In this document: positions 5,750-62,908 of the stretch, piece by piece
Layout: every line of letters starts with the position of its first letter
How positions within the stretch are numbered: the first letter of the stretch is position 1
Virus record (IMG/VR): IMGVR_UViG_3300032286_000710
Location: 1-64,000 of that record
Source of the DNA: a virus
DNA: 64,000 nucleotides
Strand: one strand, 5' to 3'
Notes under the pieces: generated by a model
What the model saw: the letters and a program-made list of their open reading frames with translations, nothing else
Told to the model about the DNA's origin: nothing
Database searches by the model: none
Position numbers and translations under genes: made by a program

Positions 5750-6280
5750 ATGAAACTTAAAGATATAGTACCATACTGTTTACAAATTAAAAATGGTCAG
5801 CCGCACTCATCAGAATACTATTGGATTATTAATGGAATAAATTATGCTTTTGATTCTTTACAATTAGACATTGTTAACTTTATTAATTTGATCGCCAATC
5901 CTAATGGATATGATTATTTAATGCTCAACTTAAACAATGAGATAACTATTTTTGACAAATTCATTCTGGTTCATAAAACTCAAAACGAAACAACAAACAA
6001 TGAATCAAGAGTATTTCACCGACAAAATTATCCTATAGCCTATGGTCAGCCGCACTCAGCAGAATGCTATACCATAGGATTATTTCATACCACCACCAAC
6101 TGCATGATGGTTGATCTGAGAACCACCATATTTAAAGACCTTATCTCTCCACCTGTCCAATCTAAACCAGCCGATTTGACTCTGGATGAACGAGTTGATG
6201 GTCTTATTGATGAACTTATGAGACAAAGCAAAACTATGGTTATTAAAAAATTAAAGAGAATGTTAAATGAGCGACTCTGA
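5750..6280 (+). CDS. Hypothetical protein with duplicated GQPHS motif, 176 aa
   Basis: The product has two copies of the motif GQPHS(S/A)E-x-Y (about residues 16-24 and 99-107), each preceded by a hydrophobic strand, which suggests two related modules. The C-terminus is helical and basic. The nucleotide copies are nearly identical, pointing to a recent internal duplication or conversion. No named family recognised. Confidence 0.6.
   Translation: MKLKDIVPYCLQIKNGQPHSSEYYWIINGINYAFDSLQLDIVNFINLIANPNGYDYLMLNLNNEITIFDKFILVHKTQNETTNNESRVFHRQNYPIAYGQPHSAECYTIGLFHTTTNCMMVDLRTTIFKDLISPPVQSKPADLTLDERVDGLIDELMRQSKTMVIKKLKRMLNERL
5793..6070 (+). repeat. Direct repeat of 29 bp within one gene
   Basis: 5793-5821 and 6042-6070 match at 27 of 29 positions; both begin ATGGTCAGCCGCACTCA. 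The surrounding sequence is not repeated at this level, so the similarity is confined to the motif. Confidence 0.75.
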
Positions 6281-6548
6281 AAAAGTATATTTACTAACTA
6301 ATTTCTTAACTCAAGATGAATTAGATAAATTCCAAAGAGAAATAAAAGATGATATAAAATACTCATATGAATTTAAGGAACAGTTTAAGAAGTATGAGAT
6401 AGAGTTACACATATCAAAAAATGACGCTATCAAATATTATGATTTATTTACTGAATTATTTTTCTTGGTTGAAACTAAAATTGGTCAAGCAATCTCATGG
6501 AAAAGATTTAAGAATGTTTTTAAGAATGAATCCTCATCGAAAGTATAA
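6267..6548 (+). CDS. Hypothetical helical protein, 93 aa
   Basis: Starts within the last codons of the preceding gene. The chain is charged and helical (DELDKFQREIKDDIKYSYEFKEQFKKY) with a second helix near FTELFFLVETKIG. Probably soluble; function unknown. Confidence 0.55.
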   Translation: MSDSEKVYLLTNFLTQDELDKFQREIKDDIKYSYEFKEQFKKYEIELHISKNDAIKYYDLFTELFFLVETKIGQAISWKRFKNVFKNESSSKV

Positions 6549-6837
6549 AAGTTATATGCAAGGTTCAGACCTTTTACTAATAATTTTACCAATTTTTTTG
6601 GTACTATTCGGTGTATTTATTCTGAATCCACTTCATAAAAATAATATATCACAACCATTGTGTCAACAATATACCTTAAAACAATCTGATCAGGTATGGT
6701 TTTATAAGCCAGACGAGATTTGCTGGACAAAAGGAGAGGTATTATATTTATGGGGCTATCATCCAGTAGTTTATTGTAAACAACTGAATAAAACTTTTAA
6801 TTTTCATGAAATAGAATGGACAATAGGAAATGATTGA
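6526..6837 (+). CDS. Small membrane-anchored protein, 103 aa
   Basis: I place the start at ATG 6526 (alternative ATG 6556); an earlier start would only read through the preceding gene. After a basic N-terminus comes one hydrophobic span (LLLIILPIFLVLFGVFIL), then a soluble domain with C-x-Q, C-W and C-K cysteines. The basic N-terminus suggests the domain lies outside the cytoplasm. The next gene is also membrane-anchored. Confidence 0.5.
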   Translation: MNPHRKYKSYMQGSDLLLIILPIFLVLFGVFILNPLHKNNISQPLCQQYTLKQSDQVWFYKPDEICWTKGEVLYLWGYHPVVYCKQLNKTFNFHEIEWTIGND

Positions 6838-7759
6838 ACACGAAAAAGATCTAGTAGGTTTGTTTTATATCACAATAGTTATTTTTGCTGTTGCTTTAAT
6901 CGGAGTATTCTGTTTAAATAGTATCTATAAAAAGAATACGGATAAAGTACCCCAAAACAAACCAATTGATAGACAAACTATAAGTACCGATAATATTACT
7001 GGTAATGTTGAAAGTATTCATCCTTGGGGACGAACAGAAATTGTTCCCATGAAAAGTATAGAGTTAGAATATTTTGAATATTGCGAACAATGGGTTATGT
7101 ATGGTGATGTTGTTCAGCCAGTTGGCCGCAAAGGTTATTTCATGCCGGTAATGAGAGGCAACCTTGATTTTAATGTTAGAGATCTTACCCAAACTTGGGT
7201 TGAACATAAAATTCTTGCAACTGGCCCAGAAAAAACAGCAGAAACTTATGAAGATTTTAGAGTAGCAAATATTAGAGCAGAAAAAGGAAAAATTATTGAT
7301 ATAAACTACTCTCATTATAGGTTGTTGTCAGATAATACTTGGAGTATAATAGCATCATGGAAAGCAATAGTTAATCCAGACGTTCCTGACCCTGTTCCAG
7401 AAAATGTACAGAAAGAATCAGAACATCCAGTAATAGTTTGTTCATCTTGTAAAGGTAAGGGAGAAAAACTTACCGACGTTAATAAATTAATGATGGATGC
7501 GTCACTGGCTATATTTTTTAATCATCATCTGATGGTTGACAAATGTGAAAAGTGTGTTAAACTACCTAACGGCGACGGTTATAACTACTGCGACGTTGTA
7601 AATGAGCGTTACCAGACTTTACTTAAAGAATATGGTGATGCTGGGCCGAAAATAGATATGGCAGCGTGTGAACAATGTATGGGCATGGGAACTTTTAGTA
7701 GCCAAGATGCAACTACCGGAAAGTGGCTAACTCAGGAAGAATATGATGAAAAAAATTAA
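6830..7759 (+). CDS. Membrane-anchored protein with DnaJ-type zinc-finger motifs, 309 aa
   Basis: Residues 10-32 form a single N-terminal membrane span. A beta-rich domain follows (about 60-190), then a cysteine region with CSSCKGKG (about 206), CEKC (about 238) and CEQCMGMG (about 281). CxxCxGxG is the signature of the DnaJ central zinc domain, which binds unfolded protein, but no J-domain (HPD) is present. It may be a membrane-tethered chaperone-like or assembly factor, or a plain zinc scaffold. The start overlaps the previous gene by 8 nt. Confidence 0.55.
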   Translation: MIEHEKDLVGLFYITIVIFAVALIGVFCLNSIYKKNTDKVPQNKPIDRQTISTDNITGNVESIHPWGRTEIVPMKSIELEYFEYCEQWVMYGDVVQPVGRKGYFMPVMRGNLDFNVRDLTQTWVEHKILATGPEKTAETYEDFRVANIRAEKGKIIDINYSHYRLLSDNTWSIIASWKAIVNPDVPDPVPENVQKESEHPVIVCSSCKGKGEKLTDVNKLMMDASLAIFFNHHLMVDKCEKCVKLPNGDGYNYCDVVNERYQTLLKEYGDAGPKIDMAACEQCMGMGTFSSQDATTGKWLTQEEYDEKN

Positions 7760-8096
7760 AAGAAAACAAACAAAAGAGTCAATAACCTCTGTGAGTCCTT
7801 GGGATTTGTCTGGCAGTCCAGAGGATATTTGTAAAGAATTGAGAACAACTCAAGACGCTTATCTGAAAGATCGAAATGATGTTATTGAATCATATTGGTC
7901 TTGGGAAAGTACTCCTTATAGTGATCATGGATCATTTGAACTGGTCATTACTAGACTAGAAAACGATAAAGAGTATAATGCTAGAGTTAAAGAGTTAATG
8001 AAAATTAAGGAAAAGAAGAAGGCCGATAAACAAAAGCAAGATGAATATGAACTACAGGAATATTTGAAACTAAAAAATAAATTTGATAAGGAATAA
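7743..8096 (+). CDS. Hypothetical coiled-coil protein, 117 aa
   Basis: Basic N-terminus (KKIKRKQTK), a middle with a SPWDLSGSPEDIC segment, and a long charged C-terminal coiled coil (residues 85-117, KEKKKADKQKQDEYELQEYL). Two consecutive ATGs start the gene inside the end of the previous one. Function unknown. Confidence 0.55.
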   Translation: MMKKIKRKQTKESITSVSPWDLSGSPEDICKELRTTQDAYLKDRNDVIESYWSWESTPYSDHGSFELVITRLENDKEYNARVKELMKIKEKKKADKQKQDEYELQEYLKLKNKFDKE

Positions 8097-8097
8097 T

Positions 8098-8262
8098 ATG
8101 AACTGGGAATGTAATCGTTGTGGCTATAGAGTTCAACCTGTTAAAGAGGTCGAACCTGATGGAATGGCTTGGCCTGCTGGTCGGGCTTGCTCTAGATGTC
8201 TGGGCGAAATGGTATATCGCCCAATTTATAAAGGTTTGGAGGTTTATCTTAAAATGTATTAA
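8098..8262 (+). CDS. Zinc-ribbon miniprotein, 54 aa
   Basis: AAGGA stands 6 nt before ATG. CNRCG near the start and CSRC 25 residues later form a two-knuckle zinc ribbon of rubredoxin/FmdB type. The frame continues without another stop for 82 codons after its TAA 8260-8262, merging with the next gene, which suggests that the two were once one protein. Confidence 0.6.
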   Translation: MNWECNRCGYRVQPVKEVEPDGMAWPAGRACSRCLGEMVYRPIYKGLEVYLKMY

Positions 8263-8340
8263 ACAATATCGGATTTAGGTAAAAAAAGTGGATGGAACGC
8301 TAGAGTATTTCAGTGGGAAGATTCTGATGAAGTAAGGCGT

Positions 8341-25172: not shown

Positions 25173-25505
25173 ATGAATATTAATACATGGTTAGGATGTG
25201 GTAGATTAACAAAGGATGCGGAACTAAGCACAACCCAAAAGGGTACTGCTATGGCAAAGTTTCGCATGGCAGTGAATGATCGTCGCAATGAAGACACTCT
25301 ATTCTTAAATATCCTATGCTTTGGAAAGATGGCTGAAGCATTAAAGGATCATCTAAAGAAGGGCAGATTGGTTGGCGTTCAAGGAAAGTTAAAAATTGAC
25401 GATTATCAAGATAAGGATGGAAATCAAAAGAACTCTATCTGCGTAATGGCAGATGAAATTTCTTTAGGCCCATCTGGAATTGTAGGGCAAGACTCTAAAG
25501 AGTGA
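25173..25505 (+). CDS. ssb: Single-stranded DNA-binding protein, 110 aa
   Basis: OB-fold SSB: NTWLGCGRLTKDAEL at the start, AKFRMAVNDR, FLNILCFGKMAEAL, KKGRLVGVQGKL and the C-terminal strand. It lacks the usual acidic DDDIPF tip, ending DSKE. It protects single-stranded DNA at the fork. A second SSB-like gene lies at 57523. A terminator follows. Confidence 0.9.
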   Translation: MNINTWLGCGRLTKDAELSTTQKGTAMAKFRMAVNDRRNEDTLFLNILCFGKMAEALKDHLKKGRLVGVQGKLKIDDYQDKDGNQKNSICVMADEISLGPSGIVGQDSKE

Positions 25506-45919: not shown

Positions 45920-46341
45920 GTATGAACGATTTTATAAACATGCTTAACGACGAACAAAAGCAAGCTTTGTTAAAGGCACTAGTTGGTGATAGTCCAACCG
46001 TAGCTAGTGTTCCAAAAGAAGTGAGAAAAGAAAGCATAAAGAAGATACAGTCTTCCACACCCCCTGCAAGTGTGAATGAAGATTTTACAATGTTTAAGCA
46101 GGATAGTAATTCTAATACTAATACTAGGAGAAAAGAAGCCGTGAGAGCTAGAAAGAATGAATGGAAAGATACGGGTGAGTCTAGGGATGTAGAAACTCCA
46201 CAGTTTGAAAGAACACCCCGTCGCCGTGAGCCATACAAAAAGGTAGAAGTAGAATGCCACGTTTGTGGAAAGTCTTTCAAGGAAGATCCCAAGATTATTC
46301 ATGGAGAATACTATCGTTGCAATAGATGCACCGGTAAATAA
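45916..46341 (+). CDS. Zinc-ribbon-tailed protein, 141 aa
   Basis: An N-terminal helix (NDFINMLNDEQKQALLKALVG), a long disordered Ser/Arg/Lys middle (about 25-105) and a C-terminal zinc ribbon, CHVCGKSFKED...YRCNRC (about 115-138). It overlaps the previous gene and is followed by the helicase, so an adaptor linking recombination and replication is possible. Confidence 0.6.
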   Translation: MSMNDFINMLNDEQKQALLKALVGDSPTVASVPKEVRKESIKKIQSSTPPASVNEDFTMFKQDSNSNTNTRRKEAVRARKNEWKDTGESRDVETPQFERTPRRREPYKKVEVECHVCGKSFKEDPKIIHGEYYRCNRCTGK

Positions 46342-46342
46342 T

Positions 46343-47809
46343 ATGGAAGTAACACTGACTGATATTGGATCAGAAAGAGCCGTTTTAGCTGGATTATTGC
46401 AGCACGGTATAGATGGATATGTAGCGGTATCTGACATAGTGAGTCAAGACACTTTCGGACATTTGAACAATCAAATATTGTTTAAGTGCATTGAAAAAGT
46501 TATTCTCAACGATCAGAAAGTAGACATACCATCCATATTATCCGCAGCAGATCAGTTAAATCTTTCTGAAAGTATAAATACAGATCAAGAGTTGAAGTAT
46601 ATAAAGTCTCTAATGGACTTCCCCATCAACAAAGATAATGTTTTTAGCTTTGCAATACAGATGAAGAAGTTTGAGTTTGCACGTAAAATAAAAGGTCTTA
46701 CTGCAAAGATTCATAAAGATGTAGATAGTGTTACTGGTGCTGAATCTATAAATGAGATTATACAAATACTTGAAAATCCAGTTACTGATTTCTTAAGGGA
46801 AGATGATAGCGGCGATCTTCCAGAAAAGATTGGCAAGGATGCTAAAGATTATATACAGTTTCTAGAAGAGAATAAATGTGATATCATAGGTATTCCAACG
46901 GGCTTCAATAAATATGATGAAGCAATTGGTGGCGGATTACGAAGGAAATGTGTTGATTTAGTATCAGCAAGACCAAAGGTTGGAAAAAGCGTATTCGCTG
47001 ATAATGTAGCATTAAATGTATCTTCCGGTGGCGTTCCAGTACTGATGTTAGATACTGAAATGAGTAAGGAAGATCACTTAAATAGACTATTGGCAAATAT
47101 CAGCGGAGTTCCAATTAATGAAGTTGCTACTGGTAAATTCACAGATGATGAAGAAAAACGACGCAAGGTGATGGAAGCAATCGAAAAGATTGAATCTATA
47201 CCTTACAGTTATGTTAGCGTTGCTGGAAAGCCGTTTGAACAAATACTTAACCTAATTAAGCGTTGGGTTATGCAAGAAGTCAGAATTGGCGACAATGGCA
47301 AGACAAACAACTGTCTTATCATATATGATTATCTTAAGTTAATGTCATCGACTTCTATTACTAATAATATACAAGAATACCAAGCACTTGGTTTTCAGAT
47401 TACATCACTACATAATCTTTGCGTCAAGCTTGACATACCATGTTTGTCCTTTGTACAATTGAACCGTGACGGCATAACAAAAGAAAGCACAGACGCTGTT
47501 TCTGGATCAGACAGATTGATTTGGTTATGTACATCATTTAGCATATTCAAAATCAAATCTCCAGAAGAACTAGCAGAAGATGGGCCAAATGCTGGAAACA
47601 GGAAGCTTGTACCGATTGTTTCAAGACATGGTGGAGGCTTGGACGATGGTGATTACATTAACATGGTAATGCAGGGATCTCACGCAAAGTTAAGAGAGCT
47701 GAAAACACGTAACGAATTTAAGAATCAGCCAGTTGGAGACACTGGCATGGTAGACCAGAACACATTAGATAAGCTAAAAATTAATGGACTTGCAGAAGAT
47801 CAAGAATAG
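46343..47809 (+). CDS. dnaB: DnaB-like replicative helicase, 488 aa
   Basis: Unwinds DNA ahead of the fork. An N-terminal helical domain (about 1-150) is followed by a RecA-like motor: IPTGFNKYDEAIGGGL (184-199), Walker A SARPKVGKS (208-216), VLMLDTEMSKEDH, and FVQLNRDG(I)-type motif. ATG 46343 is 1 nt after the previous stop; a longer frame would overlap the zinc ribbon gene. Its partner primase starts inside its end. Confidence 0.92.
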   Translation: MEVTLTDIGSERAVLAGLLQHGIDGYVAVSDIVSQDTFGHLNNQILFKCIEKVILNDQKVDIPSILSAADQLNLSESINTDQELKYIKSLMDFPINKDNVFSFAIQMKKFEFARKIKGLTAKIHKDVDSVTGAESINEIIQILENPVTDFLREDDSGDLPEKIGKDAKDYIQFLEENKCDIIGIPTGFNKYDEAIGGGLRRKCVDLVSARPKVGKSVFADNVALNVSSGGVPVLMLDTEMSKEDHLNRLLANISGVPINEVATGKFTDDEEKRRKVMEAIEKIESIPYSYVSVAGKPFEQILNLIKRWVMQEVRIGDNGKTNNCLIIYDYLKLMSSTSITNNIQEYQALGFQITSLHNLCVKLDIPCLSFVQLNRDGITKESTDAVSGSDRLIWLCTSFSIFKIKSPEELAEDGPNAGNRKLVPIVSRHGGGLDDGDYINMVMQGSHAKLRELKTRNEFKNQPVGDTGMVDQNTLDKLKINGLAEDQE

Positions 47810-48824
47810 TCTTAACGATCAGTCAGAAGAAGTATTCTCAAAACTAGGTATGAAATACGAGGTTTTGGGAGATAATATCTATTGTAATTGTCCTGTTCAT
47901 GAGGGTAGCGACAATCCAAGAGCTTTCTCATTCTCTAAAGATAAAGGTATATGGAAGTGCTGGACTAGAGATTGTCAACAACAATATAGAAATGACATAT
48001 TTGGAGTCATAAGAGGATCACTTTCAAAAGAGAGTGGAGTAGAGGCTGAATTTTCTGATGCTTTAAAATGGGCATGTGATTTTCTAGGTATCAAAAAGGG
48101 TAGAAGTTCATCTCAAAAACCCGCCGTAAAAGAACCAGTAAAAGAAGATGACTTTAATAAACTAGTAAACACAATAAACTCTAAAATTAAACTAGATGAT
48201 AATTATCCAGCCATTGAAATAGATGAGTGTGTAAAAACACCATCACAATACTTTATATCTAGGGGATTCAAACCAGAAACTTTAGTTCATTTTGATGTTG
48301 GAGATTGTTATGATCGTGTATCAAAATTATACGAAAGATCAGTAGTCCCCATTCATAATGATACGGGCGATAAAGTAATAGCTTGTATAGCAAGGTCTAT
48401 AAAAGAATATAGAAGCCCAAAGTTTCTTCTAGATCCAAAGGGGTTTGATAAGAGATACTTCTTTTATAACTATCACCGGGCTATAGAAAGCGTTAAGCAA
48501 ACATCATCATTGTTTCTTGTAGAAGGGCAGGGCGATGTTTGGAGACTATATGAAGCTGGTATTACTCAGTCAATGAGTCTTTTTGGTAGGAGTCTTAGCA
48601 AAGAACAAGAACTAAAACTGTCTAAAATGCCTCTCACTCATATAATAGTCTTACTAGACAACGATCAAGCTGGTCGAGAGGCAAAGGTTCAACTCCAGAG
48701 ACAATTGGGTAGAATGTATAAATTATCTTTCCCCAAAATACCAACCAAAGACGTTGGCGAGATGAGAGTTGAACAAATAAAGAATATTATTATACCACAG
48801 GTCAAGGGAACAATAAATGGTTAA
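47784..48824 (+). CDS. dnaG: DnaG-like primase, 346 aa
   Basis: Synthesises RNA primers. N-terminal CHC2-type zinc finger: C36-P-V-H39, C59, C64. After a linker comes a TOPRIM domain with SLFLVEGQGDVW (Glu) and HIIVLLDNDQAG (Asp-x-Asp). Shorter than bacterial DnaG (about 580) because the helicase-binding C-terminal domain is missing. It overlaps the helicase by 26 nt, so the two are probably made together. Confidence 0.9.
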   Translation: MDLQKIKNSLNDQSEEVFSKLGMKYEVLGDNIYCNCPVHEGSDNPRAFSFSKDKGIWKCWTRDCQQQYRNDIFGVIRGSLSKESGVEAEFSDALKWACDFLGIKKGRSSSQKPAVKEPVKEDDFNKLVNTINSKIKLDDNYPAIEIDECVKTPSQYFISRGFKPETLVHFDVGDCYDRVSKLYERSVVPIHNDTGDKVIACIARSIKEYRSPKFLLDPKGFDKRYFFYNYHRAIESVKQTSSLFLVEGQGDVWRLYEAGITQSMSLFGRSLSKEQELKLSKMPLTHIIVLLDNDQAGREAKVQLQRQLGRMYKLSFPKIPTKDVGEMRVEQIKNIIIPQVKGTING

Positions 48825-53610: not shown

Positions 53611-55236
53611 ATGAATTGGTTCCCGTTGAAGAATTTTACTCATTATAGTTTGCTCAAGGGGTATTCCAAACCAGAAGAATTAGCAAAGAAATGCAAGGAT
53701 AATGGATATCCAGCATGTGGCATTTGTGATTATAAAACATTATCTGGTGCAGTTGCCTTCTATAAAGCTTGCAAGAAGCAAGGCATAAAGCCAATCATTG
53801 GATGCTCGTTTGATTTTGCTACACTTTTTGCCAAGAACAAAGATGGGTGGTACGAGTTAATTGAGATGGTTTCATCACTAGATGAAAATGGTAAGTTACC
53901 AGAGCAATATGACAATACAAATATCAGTAAAAATTTGATTAGTGTCTATAATGCTCCTACTGAATTAATGCCTATTAGTTATTATACAAATAGGGAAGAT
54001 GCCAAACTTCACAGAATATTATTATGTTCTGACATGAAGACTACGCTACCAAGAATAAAGAAGTGCATTAGGCCAGATAACAAGGGTGGTCTAAATATAG
54101 ATTCAAAATATCCAGAAGAGCATATGGATAAATTAGTATATTTTATGCAAGATTCTTTTTACGTCAAAGACAAGGATGAATCTAAGGGGTTAGACTCGTC
54201 TAAACTAAAAGAGATTTATGACCAGTGCGAAGACTATGATATTCTTAGCAAGCCAATGCTACCTAAATTTGAATGTCCAAAAGGGGCATCAGAAGAAGAT
54301 TATCTCAAAGAACTATGCCGTATTGGCTGGAAGAAAATACTAATAGATCAAAATAAGGTATCAAAAGAAGAAGATAAGCAGAAGTATTTGAGTAGATTCA
54401 AGGAAGAGTTTGATGTTATTAAAGATGCTAATCTATTCGGATATTTTCTTATTGTTCGTGATATTATAAAGCACGTTAATGATATGGGTTGGTTATCTGG
54501 TCCCGGTAGAGGATCTGCCGCAGGGTGTTTAATCTCATATTTAATTGGTATCACAAAGATTGACCCAATAGAGTTTGACCTTCTATTTGCACGATTTTAT
54601 AACGCTGGAAGAAATAGTGCTGATCATATATCTCTACCAGATATTGATATAGACGTTCCCGGTACTAAACGTGATGAAATTATCGCATATCTAAAGGATA
54701 AATATGGTCATAGTCGAGTCAGTCAAATGTTAACGTTTGGCAGACTTCAAGGCAAAAGTGCTATCAAAGAAGTCTTGCGTGTTAATGAGGCTTGTTCATT
54801 CTCTGAAATGAATGCTATAAGTAATTGTATTCCAGATGAAGCAAAGATTTCAGACCAGTTAGCAGAAATGGATGATGAAGATCGTTCTATTATTAAATGG
54901 GCATTAATCAACAACTCTGAGGATCTAAGAGATTTCTGTAGAATATCAGAAGATGGTAAACTTGAGGGTGAATACGCAGAATATTTTGAACAAGCTATTC
55001 AGATAGAGGGAACATTCAAAACTCAGGGAAAACACGCTGCCGGTGTAGTAATTTCAGCAGAGCCACTTCAAAAGGTATGCCCAATGGTAAAACAAAAAGG
55101 TTCATCAGAAAAGGTGGCTGGACTTGAAATGGCAGACTTAGAGGCATTAGGCCACGTAAAGTTTGACGTTCTAGGAATTAATTTGCTAGATAAAATTATG
55201 AAGATTGAAGAACTAACAGGAGTATCTAATGGCTAA
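53611..55236 (+). CDS. dnaE: DNA polymerase III alpha subunit, N-terminal half (PHP + palm), 541 aa
   Basis: PHP domain at the start (FTHYSLLKGYSKPEELAK), but both metal histidines of the HxH are replaced (Lys and Phe), so it is probably inactive. The palm follows: GPGRGSAAG (297-305), catalytic PDIDID (343-348; Asp344, Asp346), GKHAAGVVIS near 470 and the third aspartate Asp519 in VKFDVLGI. It stops 22 residues later (GVSNG), where an intact DnaE would run into the fingers. The exonuclease gene starts 8 nt before its stop. Confidence 0.92.
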   Translation: MNWFPLKNFTHYSLLKGYSKPEELAKKCKDNGYPACGICDYKTLSGAVAFYKACKKQGIKPIIGCSFDFATLFAKNKDGWYELIEMVSSLDENGKLPEQYDNTNISKNLISVYNAPTELMPISYYTNREDAKLHRILLCSDMKTTLPRIKKCIRPDNKGGLNIDSKYPEEHMDKLVYFMQDSFYVKDKDESKGLDSSKLKEIYDQCEDYDILSKPMLPKFECPKGASEEDYLKELCRIGWKKILIDQNKVSKEEDKQKYLSRFKEEFDVIKDANLFGYFLIVRDIIKHVNDMGWLSGPGRGSAAGCLISYLIGITKIDPIEFDLLFARFYNAGRNSADHISLPDIDIDVPGTKRDEIIAYLKDKYGHSRVSQMLTFGRLQGKSAIKEVLRVNEACSFSEMNAISNCIPDEAKISDQLAEMDDEDRSIIKWALINNSEDLRDFCRISEDGKLEGEYAEYFEQAIQIEGTFKTQGKHAAGVVISAEPLQKVCPMVKQKGSSEKVAGLEMADLEALGHVKFDVLGINLLDKIMKIEELTGVSNG

Positions 55237-55909
55237 TAGAGACTATATTATATTTGATTTTGAAACAGGATCACGTAATCCACACAAAACACAACCAACA
55301 CAAATTGCTGCTATTGCTTTAGATGGAAGAACATTGCAGATGAAGGGTCAATTCAATAGTGAAATCAAGCCTATTTTTGATGATGAAAAGGCTATAGCGG
55401 CTGGATTTGATCCTGTACAAGATGAAGCTTTAAAGATAACGAAGAAAACAAGAGAACAATTAGAATTAGCACCATCTTTAAAGTCTGTGTGGAATAAATT
55501 TACAAAATTTGTTGATCAGTACAATTGGAAGGGTGAACCATTTTTTAATCCTATCCCCGTTGGTTTTAATATAATTGGCTTTGATATGCACATTATACAT
55601 AGACTATGCAAGGAATTTGGACCTTGGGACAAAGAGAGAGAACAGCAAAAACTATTTAGTAGAGTCTATAAGATAGATATTATGGATAGTGTATTTGCTT
55701 GGACAGAAAGCGATCCAAGTGTTAGGTCTATAAGTATGGACTCATTACGCGAGAGAATGGGCTTGAGTTTTGATAATGCTCACGATGCTCTACAGGACGT
55801 TAAAGATGAGGCAAATATATTTATTAAGCTTATGAAGACTCATCGTGCGGTGTATCAGAACATGAATTTTGATAAGGCGTTTGCTGATGGAAATTTGTAT
55901 GTTAAATAA
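55229..55909 (+). CDS. dnaQ: DnaQ-like 3'-5' proofreading exonuclease, 226 aa
   Basis: DEDDh nuclease with all catalytic residues: Asp10-x-Glu12 (IIFDFETGS), Asp119 (GFNIIGFDMH), and His185/Asp190 (NAHDALQDV). It would remove misincorporated bases for the polymerase whose two halves flank it. Overlaps the N-terminal half by 8 nt and the C-terminal half by 11 nt, in three different reading frames. Confidence 0.92.
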   Translation: MANRDYIIFDFETGSRNPHKTQPTQIAAIALDGRTLQMKGQFNSEIKPIFDDEKAIAAGFDPVQDEALKITKKTREQLELAPSLKSVWNKFTKFVDQYNWKGEPFFNPIPVGFNIIGFDMHIIHRLCKEFGPWDKEREQQKLFSRVYKIDIMDSVFAWTESDPSVRSISMDSLRERMGLSFDNAHDALQDVKDEANIFIKLMKTHRAVYQNMNFDKAFADGNLYVK

Positions 55910-57470
55910 TTTAGACTATAATGATAAAGCAACTTGGCAACTGTTCGCAGAAGGCAAGACTAAGGGAATCTTTCAATTAGAAAGCAACCTTGGAAAATCA
56001 TGGTCTAAAAAATTAGCACCGACCAATATTGAAGAACTATCAGCACTAATTGCTATTATTAGGCCGGGAACCTTAAAAGCAATTGTTGATGGTAAAAGTA
56101 TGACACAGCATTACGTTGACCGTAAGCATGTTAGAGAAGAAGTAACATATCTTCATCCCGCATTAGAAGATATTTTAAAGCCAACATATGGCGTTCTTGT
56201 ATATCAAGAGCAGTCAATGCGTATAGCAGAAAAAATCGCTGGTTTTAATTTACAAGAGGCAGACGTTCTTCGTAAGGCTATTGGAAAGAAGAAAGCCGAT
56301 CTTATGAATGAAGTCAAAAAATCATTTATAGCGGGGGCAGAGCGTGTTGGAATCGTAAATAAGGAGAACGCGGAAGAAATCTTCGGATGGATTGAGAAAT
56401 CATCAAGATATGCATTCAATAAATCTCACAGTGTTTCATATGCTGTATGTTCTTATTGGAGTGCATATTTTAAGGCTCATAATACCAAGGAATTCTTTTT
56501 ATCTTATCTCTTTTATGCAAATGAAAAGCAAGATCCACATCAAGAAGTTTATGAATTGATATCTGAAGCTAAACTATTTGATATTGAGACAAGAACTCCA
56601 AGCTTAACGAACTTTGAAAGAAAGTTCAATATTAAACGTGGTAAGATATACTTTGGTATTAAAGATATAAAGTCACTAACTGGTGCAACCGGAGATAAGT
56701 TAATAGAGACTATAACTGAAGCAGAGAAGACTTTGAGTAAGCCAGTAAAGGAATTTACTTGGCTTGAAATTTTACTTTTTATAGGATCAAATATTAGCTC
56801 TACTGCATTCAAGGCTTTAGCTTCCATAGGATTCTTTAGGAATTTCAAAGGTAATGTTACTAGAAATAAAGCCCTTTATGATTATGAAATTTACAGAACT
56901 CTCACTAAAGCAGAACAAACTTGGATATTAAATCATTATAATGATAAAAAGTGGGATTCTTTTGTGGATTGTTTGAGAGATTTAGCACCAACTAAAAAAG
57001 AGGGCGGTGGAACTAGCAAAGCTGACAGGAAGCAGGCTATAGAAAATGAGATACAACTATTAGTAAGTCCACCATATGATCTAGAGGACGATCCAACTTG
57101 GATTATAGATCAAGAAGTTAAATTTTTAGGTTGTCCTGTTACAATGACAAAGGTGGAGACTTCTGATACGTCTGCCGCAAATACTACTTGCAAAGAAATA
57201 ATCAATGGCAAGAAGGGTAAGGATATGTGTATAGTAGCCAACATTCAAAGATTATCAGATTACACAATTAATAAGGGTGAATCTAAAGGTCAGGTAATGT
57301 CATTTCTAACAATAGAAGATGATACGTGCATACTTGATAGTGTTATAGTGTTCCCTAAGACCCGAGAAAAATATAAATATATTCTATATGAAGGAAACAA
57401 CTTAATTTTCTGTGGGTCAGTAAGTGATAAAGACACATCATTTATAGTAGATAAGATTCACGAAATTTAA
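55899..57470 (+). CDS. dnaE: DNA polymerase III alpha subunit, C-terminal half (fingers to OB), 523 aa
   Basis: Starts near ATG 55899 (in-frame ATG 55887 possible). KGIFQLESNLG (23-33), IIRPGTLKAI (53-62), TYGVLVYQEQSMRIA (96-110), DVLRKAIGKKK (122-132) and YAFNKSHSVSYAV (171-183) are the DnaE finger segments. Middle: helix-hairpin-helix region. C-terminus: OB fold (SKGQVMSFLTIEDDTCILDSVIVF). No intein residues (no Cys/Ser junction) are seen. It must associate with the N-terminal half in trans. Confidence 0.92.
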   Translation: MLNNLDYNDKATWQLFAEGKTKGIFQLESNLGKSWSKKLAPTNIEELSALIAIIRPGTLKAIVDGKSMTQHYVDRKHVREEVTYLHPALEDILKPTYGVLVYQEQSMRIAEKIAGFNLQEADVLRKAIGKKKADLMNEVKKSFIAGAERVGIVNKENAEEIFGWIEKSSRYAFNKSHSVSYAVCSYWSAYFKAHNTKEFFLSYLFYANEKQDPHQEVYELISEAKLFDIETRTPSLTNFERKFNIKRGKIYFGIKDIKSLTGATGDKLIETITEAEKTLSKPVKEFTWLEILLFIGSNISSTAFKALASIGFFRNFKGNVTRNKALYDYEIYRTLTKAEQTWILNHYNDKKWDSFVDCLRDLAPTKKEGGGTSKADRKQAIENEIQLLVSPPYDLEDDPTWIIDQEVKFLGCPVTMTKVETSDTSAANTTCKEIINGKKGKDMCIVANIQRLSDYTINKGESKGQVMSFLTIEDDTCILDSVIVFPKTREKYKYILYEGNNLIFCGSVSDKDTSFIVDKIHEI

Positions 57471-57522: not shown

Positions 57523-57834
57523 ATGAATATGTGTTCTTTTACGGGATACTTGGTTGAAAACCCAAGAATCTCTATGGTTGGAGATGTGGTTTTGGCGGAA
57601 TTTGTTATGGTGATATATACTTATCGCAAAACAAAAACCGGTGAAAAGAATAGAATTCCAACATATATACATTGTGAAGCTTGGCATACCGGTGCTGAGA
57701 CTTTAGAAAAGTATGCCACGCAAGGCACTAAGTTAGTTATTCATGCCTCTGCTAAAAATCCAGAAAAGGATAATGAAGATATTGTTTTTAGAATTAACGA
57801 GTTTGATTTCTGTCACAAGGACTTTGAAGACTGA
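57523..57834 (+). CDS. SSB-like OB-fold protein, 103 aa
   Basis: GAGGAG 7 nt before ATG. SFTGYLVENPRISMV, VLAEFVMVIYTYRK, YIHCEAWHTGAETLEKYATQGTKLVIHA match the SSB OB-fold order, in a shorter form than the ssb at 25173, and it lacks an acidic tip. Follows the polymerase genes, so it may serve the replisome, whereas the other serves recombination; the division of labour is a guess. Confidence 0.75.
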   Translation: MNMCSFTGYLVENPRISMVGDVVLAEFVMVIYTYRKTKTGEKNRIPTYIHCEAWHTGAETLEKYATQGTKLVIHASAKNPEKDNEDIVFRINEFDFCHKDFED

Positions 57835-59501
57835 TGAGAAAACCAAGAATATTATTTTGTAGCGAAGCTACGTTTTTAAATACTGGTTATGCAACATATA
57901 CCAGAGAAATATTAAACTATCTACACGGTACTGGAAAATACGAGATAGCTGAAATGGCTTCTTACGGAGAGCGTAATGACCCAAGAGCAAAAGATATACC
58001 TTGGAAATTCTACGGGGTAGTTCCAGACTCCACTTGTTCAGAAGAAGAAAAAAATCAATACTCACAGTATCCAACTGCACAATTTGGTGAAATGATTTTT
58101 GAGCATGTGTGTTTAGACTTTTTGCCAGATGTTGTTTGTGATATACGAGACTTTTGGATGTTGGATTTTGCTGAAAGATCACCATTTAGACCATATTTTA
58201 AATGGTGCATAATGCCAACAGTTGATGCTAGGCCACAGGCCAGACAGTGGGTTGCAACCTATAAATCAGCAGATGCCTGTTTAACATATTCAGAATGGGC
58301 TGGAGAAGTATTAAAACAACAGTCTGGTGATAAGATAAACTATATTGGCATTTCTCCACCGTCAGCACACGGTGCTTACCAACCCATAGAAGATAAGGCC
58401 GGGCTTAGAGCATCTATGGGAATTAATCCAGAGGCTAAAATCATTGGGACCGTCATGAGAAATCAGCGACGAAAATTATACCCAGATCTATTTCAAGCTT
58501 TTAGACTTTTGCTAGATAGCGTTGAAGACAATACTGATTATTATTTATATTGTCACACAAGTTATCCAGATTTGGGTTGGGATATTCCAGAGCTATTACA
58601 ACAATATCAATTATCATCTAAGGTATATTTTACATATATCTGTGGTCAAACTGGAAAACCGTTCCCATCGTTATTTAAGGGTGCTATTGCACAATCCCCT
58701 TACACTGGACAATTTGGGGCATCATTATCAAACGTAAAGCACGGCGTAGAATATGAAGACCTTTCCAAGATAATAAACTTATTTGATCTATATGTTCAGT
58801 ATGCTAACTGTGAAGGTTTTGGTCTGCCACAAGTAGAAGCCGCCGCATGTGGAGTACCAGTAATGGCTACAGATTATTCTGCTATGGAAAGCGTAGTAAG
58901 AAATCTAGGTGGTACTCCGCTCACTCCAAAAGCACTATATAAGGAACTTGAAACTGGTTGTTTTAGGGCGGTTCCAGACAATGTATTAGCAGCACAAAAG
59001 TTCAAAGAGTTTTTCGAACAACCAGCTAGTATAAGAAGAAGACTTGGATTTGATACTAGGCAAGCATTTTTAAAGCATTACCAATGGGATAAAAGTGGTA
59101 AAGCTTGGGAAAATTATTTTGATAGCATTGAAATATCAGAGACTTTTGATTCTTGGAGACAACCCTCTAGAATAAAAGAACCCCAACCAAAACCCGACAA
59201 GTTACCAGATAATGTTAGTCATCAAGATATATCTAGGTGGTTAATCTCAGAAGTTTTGTGTGAGCCAGAAAAGACAAATTCTTATATAGAATCTAGACTA
59301 GTAAGAGATTTAATGTATAGAAATTCCATGGCAACTACTGGCGGAATGTATTTCAATGAAAGTTCTGCTGTATTTGATGGGAAACAAACAAGAAACCCGT
59401 TTGATTTTGATATAGCGTATGATCAAATGGTAAATCTTTGCAATAGAAGAAATTTTTGGGAAAACAAGAGGCTTGAAATGTTGAAAGCTAGGGGCATGTA
59501 A
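57834..59501 (+). CDS. Glycosyltransferase, GT4, with extra C-terminal domain, 555 aa
   Basis: ILFCSEATFLNTGYATYTREILNYL starts the first Rossmann half. GEFGLPQVEAAACGVPVMATDY-like (ANCEGFGLPQVEAAACGVPVMATDY, about 321-345) is the E-x7-E donor site. After about residue 440 a Lys/Pro linker leads to a 110-residue C-terminal domain of unknown role. TGATG overlap with the SSB-like gene. Opens the glycan cluster. Confidence 0.83.
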   Translation: MRKPRILFCSEATFLNTGYATYTREILNYLHGTGKYEIAEMASYGERNDPRAKDIPWKFYGVVPDSTCSEEEKNQYSQYPTAQFGEMIFEHVCLDFLPDVVCDIRDFWMLDFAERSPFRPYFKWCIMPTVDARPQARQWVATYKSADACLTYSEWAGEVLKQQSGDKINYIGISPPSAHGAYQPIEDKAGLRASMGINPEAKIIGTVMRNQRRKLYPDLFQAFRLLLDSVEDNTDYYLYCHTSYPDLGWDIPELLQQYQLSSKVYFTYICGQTGKPFPSLFKGAIAQSPYTGQFGASLSNVKHGVEYEDLSKIINLFDLYVQYANCEGFGLPQVEAAACGVPVMATDYSAMESVVRNLGGTPLTPKALYKELETGCFRAVPDNVLAAQKFKEFFEQPASIRRRLGFDTRQAFLKHYQWDKSGKAWENYFDSIEISETFDSWRQPSRIKEPQPKPDKLPDNVSHQDISRWLISEVLCEPEKTNSYIESRLVRDLMYRNSMATTGGMYFNESSAVFDGKQTRNPFDFDIAYDQMVNLCNRRNFWENKRLEMLKARGM

Positions 59502-60145
59502 TGTATAATGCACAAACATATCAAGATCTTTTTGTAAACAAGTTATTAGATATAGACAATGGATATTTTGTTGATATAGGTGCTGGAACCGGCGGATTAC
59601 CACTATATAGCCCCGGTTTTTATAGTAATACATATTTTTTTGAGAGTCGTGGCTGGCGGGGAATAGCAATAGATTACGATCAGAATTATATAAAATCAGT
59701 AGAGGGTTTTAGAAAAGCAAAATGTATTCTTGCTGATTTAAACTTTGTAAATATAAATACAATATTGGAGTCTAATAATTGCCCAGAAGAAATAGACTAT
59801 CTATCTATGGACGTAGATGATGTTCAATTCAAAGTGTTTAATGATTTCAATTTTGAAAAATATAAGTTCAAGGTGCTAACACTAGAGCATAATCTATTTC
59901 AGTCATTTTCAGAGTGTAACCAAGATCATACAGTAGAATATAAAAATAAAATAGTAAAAGAATACAAAGAATATAGATCAAAATTGCAAGACTTGGGCTA
60001 TAAAATACTTTGGGGCAATATTATATTAGATGGTTACGGACCAGTGGAAGATTGGTATGTAAATCAAGACATATATGAGAAATATAAATATTTAGAAGCA
60101 GAAAACATAAATTGTAAAGAGGTAATAAATGCTATTTTTAGATGA
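59501..60145 (+). CDS. FkbM-family methyltransferase, 214 aa
   Basis: DNGYFVDIGAGTGGLPL (about 19-35) is SAM motif I; GWRGIAIDYDQ motif II; EIDYLSMDVDDVQFKVFND (about 96-114) is the FkbM-type catalytic loop (D-x-D/E-G/x). Such enzymes O-methylate sugars. It starts 1 nt inside the GT4 gene and overlaps the next methyltransferase by 17 nt. Confidence 0.8.
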   Translation: MYNAQTYQDLFVNKLLDIDNGYFVDIGAGTGGLPLYSPGFYSNTYFFESRGWRGIAIDYDQNYIKSVEGFRKAKCILADLNFVNINTILESNNCPEEIDYLSMDVDDVQFKVFNDFNFEKYKFKVLTLEHNLFQSFSECNQDHTVEYKNKIVKEYKEYRSKLQDLGYKILWGNIILDGYGPVEDWYVNQDIYEKYKYLEAENINCKEVINAIFR

Positions 60146-60809
60146 CATTAAAAAAACTCATGATAAAATAACTAATATTTTTGAAATAGGCGCACACCGT
60201 GGTTATGACATTGACGATATAGTAAAATATTGGCCAGAAGCAAATGTCTATGCTTTTGAGGCAGATCCATTCAATTATGATATATGCAAGAAAAGATGTG
60301 AACAATATAAGAATGTTTCTGTATTTAACTTGGCTGTGACTGATGAAAATGGACAAATCACATTTAATAGATTTTGTGATATAGAAAAAATTCCAGATAG
60401 TGCTACATTTGAAGGTTCTAACATGCAATTTACTGGATGTGGATCTATCAAAAAGCCCGGTGATGGTTTAAAGAATATATACAATATCAATGAAGTTACC
60501 CAAGAAATAGTTGTGGATGCCATCACTTTAGAACATTTTTGCAAATCAAACAATATATCATCTATAGATGCTCTTTTTATGGATGTTCAAGGGGCAGAAA
60601 TGAACGTATTAAATGGATGCAAAAATTTACTCAATACTACAAAAGCGATGACATTAGAATGGTCAACAAACAGAGTTTTATACGATGGAGAAACTGATTT
60701 TACAGTAATAAAATTATTTCTTGAAAGCATAGGTTTAACCGAACAGTGTAGAGAATATCAAATATACGGTTTGAATGGGGATTCATTGTTTGTAAGATTG
60801 GAGTCATGA
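60129..60809 (+). CDS. FkbM-family methyltransferase, 226 aa
   Basis: NIFEIGAHRGYDIDDI (about 16-31) motif I, VYAFEADPFNY motif II, SIDALFMDVQGAEMNVLNG (about 144-162) the FkbM signature with D-x-x-G-x-E. Tandem with the previous methyltransferase, though not closely alike. Likely acts on a sugar made by the neighbouring glycosyltransferases. Confidence 0.83.
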   Translation: MLFLDDIKKTHDKITNIFEIGAHRGYDIDDIVKYWPEANVYAFEADPFNYDICKKRCEQYKNVSVFNLAVTDENGQITFNRFCDIEKIPDSATFEGSNMQFTGCGSIKKPGDGLKNIYNINEVTQEIVVDAITLEHFCKSNNISSIDALFMDVQGAEMNVLNGCKNLLNTTKAMTLEWSTNRVLYDGETDFTVIKLFLESIGLTEQCREYQIYGLNGDSLFVRLES

Positions 60810-60810
60810 A

Positions 60811-61926
60811 GTGAAAATACTTTATATAGGACATTATAAAGAAAGTAGCGGTTGGTCAAAAGCCGCTATAGATTTGATATTAGCTATGGATTCAGTAGGA
60901 ATCGATGTTACGTGTAGAAATATAAAGCTAACATCTAAAAGTGCTGAAATTCCAAATAGAATTTTGGAGTTAGAAAAAAAACCTCTAAAAAATATTGATA
61001 TTTGTATACAGCATGTTTTGCCTCACCATATTGTGGGTACTTCCAAGTTTAAGAAAAATATAGCTTATTATGTGTCAGAATCAAGTACTATTAATTTTAA
61101 TAATTGGTCTTCTAGCTTAAAATTAGTCGATGAATTATGGGTTCCTAATAGCACCTCCTTAAAAAATATGCAAAAGGACGGATTTGAAAATATAAAATAC
61201 GTACCACACGCTTTTGATTTGTCAATATATAAAAATAAGACCAGCACCAAAATAAACTTTGGAGAGAAAAATAGCACATTTAAATTTTATTATATAGCAG
61301 ATTTAAATGAGAGAAAGAACATAGAATCAATTATTAAATGTTTTCATAGTGAATTCCACAGATATGAACCGGTATCATTGATATTAAAAGTCAAAAAATT
61401 TGGAGTTCATCCATCAGAACTACATAAACATGTAAAAGATATATGCAACTCAATCAAAAAAACTTTAAGAATATATCCTAGTGCGGAAGATTATCACGAA
61501 GAAATAATTATTCCAAATGATATGACAGGGGACGAGATTGACGCACTACATAATTCTTGCGATTGCTTGATTAATACAACTCATGGTGAGGGCTGGTCAA
61601 TACCAGCTTTTGATGCTATGTGCTTTGGGAAAACTCCAATCTGTGGTAATGAAGGTGGTCCAAAAGAGTTTATAAAAGATAAGAGTTCTGGCACATTGAT
61701 CAGTGGCGTAAGTGGAGTTTGCGAACATTCTGACCCAGCTTTTAATAACATATTCACTGGTAGGGAGTCTTGGTTTGTTCCAGATGAAGAAGAAGTAAAA
61801 TCTGCGATGAGATACTATTACGAAAACAAAGATTTAATTGATAGAGCTAGAGGTCTTAAAGATGCAGAAGAGTTTTCATACGAAAATGTAGGGAATCTAA
61901 TAAGGGGATTGCTAGATGTACAATAA
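60811..61926 (+). CDS. Glycosyltransferase, GT4, 371 aa, GTG start
   Basis: GTG 60811 is 7 nt after GGAG. ILYIGHYKESSGWSKAAIDLI begins the acceptor domain, and THGEGWSIPAFDAMCFGKTPICGNEGG (about 253-279) is the donor site with E-x7-D/E. KFYYIADLNERKN is the usual linker strand. Overlaps the next GT by 11 nt. Confidence 0.82.
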   Translation: MKILYIGHYKESSGWSKAAIDLILAMDSVGIDVTCRNIKLTSKSAEIPNRILELEKKPLKNIDICIQHVLPHHIVGTSKFKKNIAYYVSESSTINFNNWSSSLKLVDELWVPNSTSLKNMQKDGFENIKYVPHAFDLSIYKNKTSTKINFGEKNSTFKFYYIADLNERKNIESIIKCFHSEFHRYEPVSLILKVKKFGVHPSELHKHVKDICNSIKKTLRIYPSAEDYHEEIIIPNDMTGDEIDALHNSCDCLINTTHGEGWSIPAFDAMCFGKTPICGNEGGPKEFIKDKSSGTLISGVSGVCEHSDPAFNNIFTGRESWFVPDEEEVKSAMRYYYENKDLIDRARGLKDAEEFSYENVGNLIRGLLDVQ

Positions 61927-62908
61927 TACAGTAGACAGACTGATTAGTATAGCAAATAAGGAAAAACCAGAAAAGTATAATATACTCACCTTTCCTACTC
62001 ATGAAAGATATGAGAGCGAATTATGCAAAACTGGCCATAATTTCTATGCGCTAAATACAAAAAATATGAAAAAGTGGAATGTTGAGCAAACACAAGTTCC
62101 TGCCAACTATCATATTCTTCCAGACGATCAGCTATGTGATTATTTAAACTATGACTTTATTCTAGTTCAAAGCAAATTTGGTCAATTTCAAGTTGCACAA
62201 AATATAAATCAGACTCTAAGTTTGCCAATTATATGTTTAGAGCATACCCTTCCAACCCCACAAACAATTTCTAAAAGTCAGTTAGAACAAATGCGTAATA
62301 TGCGTGGGGATGTAAATGTATTTATATCAAATTTTTCTAAAAAAGCTTGGGGCTTAGAAGGTATAATAGTGCATCATGGAGTAGATACTAAAATGTTTGC
62401 ACCAAGGGATAATCCAAAGAACTCTAAAATACTTACAGTAGCTAATGATTTCATAAATCGTGATTATTGTTTGAACTATTCTGGATGGAAACGTGTAACA
62501 GATGGATTAGAAGTAAGAGTAGTTGGAGAAACTAAGGGATTATCAGAGTCAGCAAAATCAATTGAAGATCTAGTAGATGAATATAATTCTTGCTCAGTAT
62601 ATTTTAATAGTTCTACATTAAGTCCAATACCTACCTCACTATTGGAAGCTATGGCTTGTGGATGTGCCGTTGTTTCTACTGCGACTTGCATGATACCAGA
62701 TATTATTCAAAATGGGAAAAATGGATACATTTCTAATGACGAAAAAGAGTTAAGATACTATTTGCAGCATATTATAAATGATGAAGGGATAAGAAAAACT
62801 CTTGGGCAAAATGCCAGACAAACTATAATAGACATGTTTTCAGAGGAAGGGTTTATTAATACGTGGAATTCAATATTTGACAACATATACGAGGTATCAA
62901 ACACATGA
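61916..62908 (+). CDS. Glycosyltransferase, GT4-like, 330 aa
   Basis: The second Rossmann half is clear: SSTLSPIPTSLLEAMACGCAVVSTATCMIPDII (about 234-266) with the donor-site Glu, followed by NGYISNDEKELRYYLQHII. The first half starts KYNILTFPTHERYESELCKTG. The first E of E-x7-E is replaced, so activity needs testing. It joins the cluster with 1-4 nt overlaps. Confidence 0.78.
   Translation: MYNNTVDRLISIANKEKPEKYNILTFPTHERYESELCKTGHNFYALNTKNMKKWNVEQTQVPANYHILPDDQLCDYLNYDFILVQSKFGQFQVAQNINQTLSLPIICLEHTLPTPQTISKSQLEQMRNMRGDVNVFISNFSKKAWGLEGIIVHHGVDTKMFAPRDNPKNSKILTVANDFINRDYCLNYSGWKRVTDGLEVRVVGETKGLSESAKSIEDLVDEYNSCSVYFNSSTLSPIPTSLLEAMACGCAVVSTATCMIPDIIQNGKNGYISNDEKELRYYLQHIINDEGIRKTLGQNARQTIIDMFSEEGFINTWNSIFDNIYEVSNT

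Follow-up and report, generated by a model that had tools for sequence, protein, structure and literature searches.

The DNA polymerase III alpha subunit (DnaE type) of virus record IMGVR_UViG_3300032286_000710 is encoded in two genes, an N half followed by a C half, on the + strand of the window (the 64,000-nucleotide stretch analysed, positions 1 to 64,000 of the record), and a complete DEDDh exonuclease gene sits in the gap between them. The catalytic subunit of bacterial-type replicases is, to our knowledge, almost always one long chain. The locus is best read, with a probability of roughly 85%, as a replicative two-chain DnaE that reassembles in trans with the DEDDh exonuclease as its proofreading subunit. 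The N half (53611..55236, 541 aa) comprises a degenerate PHP domain, palm and thumb with a GPGRGS motif, and the C half (55899..57470, 523 aa from its ATG) comprises fingers, HhH and an OB fold with the FQLES and RPG segments. The 3′-5′ exonuclease (55229..55909, + strand, 226 aa) belongs to the DnaQ/RNase T superfamily. As originally predicted, it is complete and overlaps both halves: its start shares 8 nt with the end of the N half (55229..55236), preceded by a ribosome-binding-like ACAGGAG, and its end shares 11 nt with the start of the C half (55899..55909). An automatic ORF list begins the C half from a TTG at 55869, but translation likely starts at the ATG at 55899, since conserved homology sets in at that point. 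The full 166,604-base record contains one DNA_pol3_alpha match, one finger match and one RNase_T match.

The N half matches Pfam PHP and DNA_pol3_alpha (1e-68), and alignment to E. coli and Taq DnaE places its catalytic residues Asp344, Asp346 and Asp519 at 54640, 54646 and 55165 (+ strand), so that all three catalytic aspartates of DnaE belong to this chain. These supply the DxD and the third Asp of a Pol-beta-type palm, with E. coli D401/D403 aligned, and with Asp519 in a chain of 541 aa the N half does stop 22 residues past the third aspartate, as had been noticed from the sequence. The three aspartates and the GRGS residues are unchanged in 51 of 51 diverse N halves. The C half matches Pfam DNA_pol3_finger (2e-48) and, weakly, HHH_6. 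Modelled with AlphaFold2 as single chains, the N half reached a pLDDT of 92.4 and a pTM of 0.90 and the C half 93.1 and 0.84, scores that are no measure of solubility or binding, and Foldseek matched both predicted structures to bacterial DnaE structures (E 1e-33 to 1e-27 for the N half, 1e-21 for the C half). Each half is thus predicted with confidence to be a folded protein with a complete, compact domain set, and by Pfam and Foldseek the C-family order of PHP, palm, fingers, HhH and OB runs across the two chains. A zinc-ribbon-like CGC.F extension precedes the fingers in 24 of 55 sampled C halves (for example L240:5917-5990, L311:3700-3770 and L489:8560-8640) and is absent from the C half of the window.

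The exonuclease (Pfam RNase_T, 1.4e-14) also matches PHROG 192, "DNA polymerase exonuclease subunit". Its DEDDh catalytic residues are Asp10, Glu12, Asp119, His185 and Asp190 (55256, 55262, 55583, 55781 and 55796, + strand), and these five residues are unchanged in all 56 homologues.

Alignment of both halves with intact DnaE places the break at the palm-fingers linker. Against E. coli DnaE the N half aligns up to residue 564 and the C half from residue 591, in line with the earlier placement of the C-half start just before FQLES/RPG, and on the DNA polymerase profile phrog_405 the N half covers up to position 617 and the C half from 623. Given the two E. coli limits, what is missing is, on alignment, no more than the linker from palm to fingers (about E. 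coli residues 573-589). In cyanobacteria, DnaE is split by a split intein near FNKSH. The window resembles the cyanobacterial case in having two genes, but it differs in that FNKSH is uninterrupted in the C half and neither IntN nor IntC sequence is found at the break, the lack of visible intein residues having been noticed earlier; neither end carries extra sequence. Joining of the halves after expression, whether by split intein, self-splicing intron, programmed frameshifting or ribosome bypass, has a precedent in the split inteins of DnaE, by which the cyanobacterial halves are joined (PMC3919608), and intein sequences are present in the dnaE of some relatives of the window (L067/L068 and L240). 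It is nevertheless highly improbable here: the N half ends about 10 residues from conserved DnaE sequence and the C half starts about 5-12 residues from it, the 8- and 11-nt overlaps leave no space for intein fragments or an intron core, the break falls in a variable linker whereas the inteins of relatives lie in conserved motifs, and about 6 kb of other genes part the halves in L489 and L490. Since there is no spare sequence at the break and two relatives show this 6-kb separation, splicing, split-intein joining or ribosome bypass across the window break is essentially excluded.

Two candidate origins of the break were also rejected: an intein, since the present-day inteins of relatives lie between GPGRG and S and between RPG and C, not here, and an intron, for which the overlapping genes leave no space. 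In L067 (6700-7350) and L068 (4700-6150) the N half is broken again, between GPGRG and S, by a two-part intein-like sequence that starts with CFLPDTRVKM and ends with GLGVHN before the S; in L068 a further long ORF separates the intein parts, which makes this a "fractured gene" carrying a split intein. The C half of L240 carries a contiguous intein between RPG and C (5917-8310; Pfam Intein_splicing). About 0.8 kb with a LAGLIDADG-like ORF interrupts the N half of L437 (3200-4420; also L438, L441, L443, L445 and L446), and in L437 this interruption has no Rfam intron match. Five relatives with odd N halves, the window not being among them, gave no Rfam match.

Scanning IMG/VR with the N half and the C half retrieved relatives from 99% down to about 40% identity. 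The N half, exonuclease and C half lie in this order on one strand in 370 of 384 relative loci; 12 of the 14 exceptions are cut off by the end of the locus, and in the other two (L133 and L134) the N half is about 6 kb upstream of the exonuclease on the same strand, and the intervening genes are of metabolic type. Every complete relative locus has the exonuclease between the polymerase halves. Because loci from different scans overlap, the safer count is the 181 distinct sequence sets. The halves are separate ORFs in 181 of 181, whereas a single polypeptide is usual for DnaE without being strictly defining, and no fusion of any two of the three genes occurs among these sets. The −8 overlap between N half and exonuclease recurs in 32 of the 181, and short overlaps (−4, −8, −11 and −20) are the commonest spacing between exonuclease and C half. 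A sequencing error, which the original prediction had named as a possible cause of the split, is ruled out by these independent relatives. The other danger it had foreseen, a close relative with an intact dnaE, did not materialise: the nearest intact phage dnaE is about 25-35% identical, and three more viral scans from increasingly divergent members gave split relatives only. A scan of genome contigs yielded two split phage-like contigs in MAGs and otherwise bacterial DnaE in one ORF, except for L379, a bacterial DnaE with one in-frame TAA at the palm-fingers junction, which is probably an error (the contig name gives a coverage of 1.05).

Many relatives carry mobile-type genes (endonuclease VII-like, HNH, T5orf172 and FkbM methyltransferase) at one or other junction, so insertions are tolerated at both. 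The window does not have the layout of a gene split by a homing endonuclease, as its gap holds the exonuclease, and endonucleases occur only in some relatives, in addition to the exonuclease. In L489 (2011-7912) and L490 (reverse strand), the roughly 6 kb inserted between N half and exonuclease contains, by eye, aldehyde dehydrogenase-like, aminotransferase-like and dehydrogenase-like genes, metabolic in look. Divergent members have, at the same junction, a gene of about 70-83 aa, frequently with YQVHS or similar (for example L301:5023-5238, L311:2806-3021 and L240:4920-5171), which has no Pfam or PHROG match and is possibly an extra subunit.

Strong purifying selection acts on each of the three genes. 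Compared with relatives wherever dS is not saturated, the window gives dN/dS of 0.01-0.07 overall, with 0.025-0.07 for the N half, 0.02-0.04 for the exonuclease and, where computable, 0.01-0.04 for the C half. A tree built from 46 concatenated sequences (quick method, LG+G4) places all 26 of the split members sampled on one side of a single branch (SH-aLRT 100), with every intact DnaE, phage or bacterial, outside the split clade. The split had one origin and shows no reversal within the sampled clade. Bacteroides phage DAC19, a distant relative, has an intact dnaE and a separate exonuclease about 15 kb away. It is generally known that gene fragmentation frequently signals decay and that many phages use host Pol III, so the split dnaE might be decaying or non-functional and the host polymerase used instead. 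Such decay is very hard to reconcile with the low dN/dS in all three genes, active sites that are invariant across the sampled relatives, a split that persists through the clade down to about 40% identity and a record in which another polymerase was not found. The arrangement is old and stable in a large, uncultured phage group, and the three proteins therefore most likely assemble into one working polymerase.

The 166,604-base record, which is linear and may be incomplete, yielded neither a family A or B polymerase nor a further RNase_T exonuclease (Pfam), and the split DnaE is therefore probably the phage's own replicase. Upstream lies a DnaB-type helicase and Toprim primase region (46265..48824, + strand; Pfam/PHROG DnaB, Toprim and primase), and directly downstream of the C half lies a gene for a single-strand DNA-binding protein (SSB; 57523..57834, + strand; Pfam SSB, 4.7e-07). 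A beta clamp was not detected by Pfam, which counts against a replicase in that processivity is left without an explanation. The halves might instead cooperate as an accessory or repair polymerase of which the exonuclease is no dedicated partner. The jumbo phages whose minimal Pol III alpha is split do have a family B polymerase, and an accessory role has been proposed for the split enzyme (PMC7824862); in the window, moreover, the contact between exonuclease and polymerase is putative. An accessory role is nonetheless unlikely, given the failure to find a polymerase of family A or B in the record, the helicase, primase and SSB genes in the same region, and an exonuclease that keeps both its active site and its place between the halves in all complete loci. 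The record has two different SSB genes (window positions 25173-25505 and 57523-57834), and just past the replication genes, at 57834-62908, is what by eye resembles a glycosyltransferase and FkbM-type methyltransferase cluster. Major capsid protein and portal candidates had no PHROG match.

If the split DnaE is a replicase assembled in trans, the halves would associate without a covalent link, using the usual palm-fingers interface, an intra-chain contact in other DnaE proteins. The exonuclease would proofread like epsilon, its contact with the polymerase being suggested by gene position and homology; with two DnaE chains and the exonuclease as proofreading subunit, the working core would have at least three chains. 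Coupled translation of the overlapping genes may hold the amounts of the chains near equal. In the subclade of the window the PHP motif has degenerated (NFTHYSLLKG and CDYKT), whereas 27 of the 51 N halves sampled retain it intact. In proteobacterial DnaE1 the PHP motif has been lost too, with a conserved putative epsilon-binding site (PMC3919608), and the degenerate PHP of the window, as in proteobacterial DnaE, fits reliance on a separate exonuclease; an intact PHP is compatible with a separate exonuclease as well. The arrangement may have originated in one ancestral insertion, or a break plus an insertion, where the junction tolerates added DNA, and the HNH, endonuclease VII, T5orf172 and FkbM mobile genes would have arrived later, at both junctions, in relatives. 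A more far-reaching version is tentative and on balance doubtful: that this is an ancient, obligate three-chain C-family replicase, maybe four-chain where the conserved 70-83-aa gene is present, in which the nesting of the proofreader gene between palm and fingers was itself selected, the polymerase and the proofreader depending on each other for assembly through coupled translation in a fixed order.

A literature search of partial coverage, in which absence is weak evidence, turned up no description of a dnaE split in the order N half, exonuclease, C half. The original prediction that the arrangement was not known from any described phage appears to stand for this break point and gene order, but not for two-part polymerases in general. 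Group 2.2 jumbo phages have a minimal Pol III alpha that is split, its two parts being proposed to come together as a single enzyme (Iyer et al., 2021, PMC7824862); as in the window, the C-family catalytic subunit of a phage is encoded in two parts. Their break, however, separates the NTP-binding part from the Mg-binding and template-binding part; the two genes lie well apart, the proteins lack PHP and other domains, and these phages also have a family B polymerase (PMC7824862). In the window, by contrast, the break follows the third Asp at the palm-fingers boundary, the N half holds every Mg ligand, PHP and OB are retained, the genes normally sit close together on either side of the exonuclease, and a family A or B polymerase was not found. 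The T4-type Aeromonas phages 25 and 44RR likewise have a replicative polymerase in two chains, with gene 43 split into 43A and 43B, and in phage 25 the two products co-purify with polymerase activity (PMC2988022). That polymerase is of family B, the gap consists of a homing endonuclease or untranslated sequence, and the split is reported from few phages (PMC2988022), whereas here a C-family polymerase has a proofreading gene in the gap. Cellulophaga phage phi13:1 (L154:4680-8280) and Bacillus phage Jayan (L156:3986-7393) also carry a two-ORF dnaE without visible inteins, but theirs is broken elsewhere, between the GPGRGS motif and the catalytic DxD, with no exonuclease in the gap. The near-identical relative of Jayan, PS1, has an intact dnaE, and splits of the phi13:1/Jayan type are therefore recent or sporadic. 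Together with Alicyclobacillus MMB025 (L155:3159-7521), in which an endonuclease lies between the two ORFs, these phages represent two other break points. In PolC of Bacillota the exonuclease is an in-frame domain within the PHP region. PolC and the window have in common a proofreading exonuclease sequence nested in a C-family polymerase locus; unlike in PolC, the exonuclease here has a gene of its own, at the palm-fingers junction, and is a separate protein. Relative to known split phage polymerases, the break point, the nested proofreader and the deep conservation appear to be new.

If a two-piece chain has been kept since the common ancestor of this phage group, a working replicase can do without the palm-fingers connection. 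The locus would then offer a natural, testable split polymerase for studies of assembly, regulation and engineering, and would illustrate how a replicase locus can come to incorporate a proofreader.
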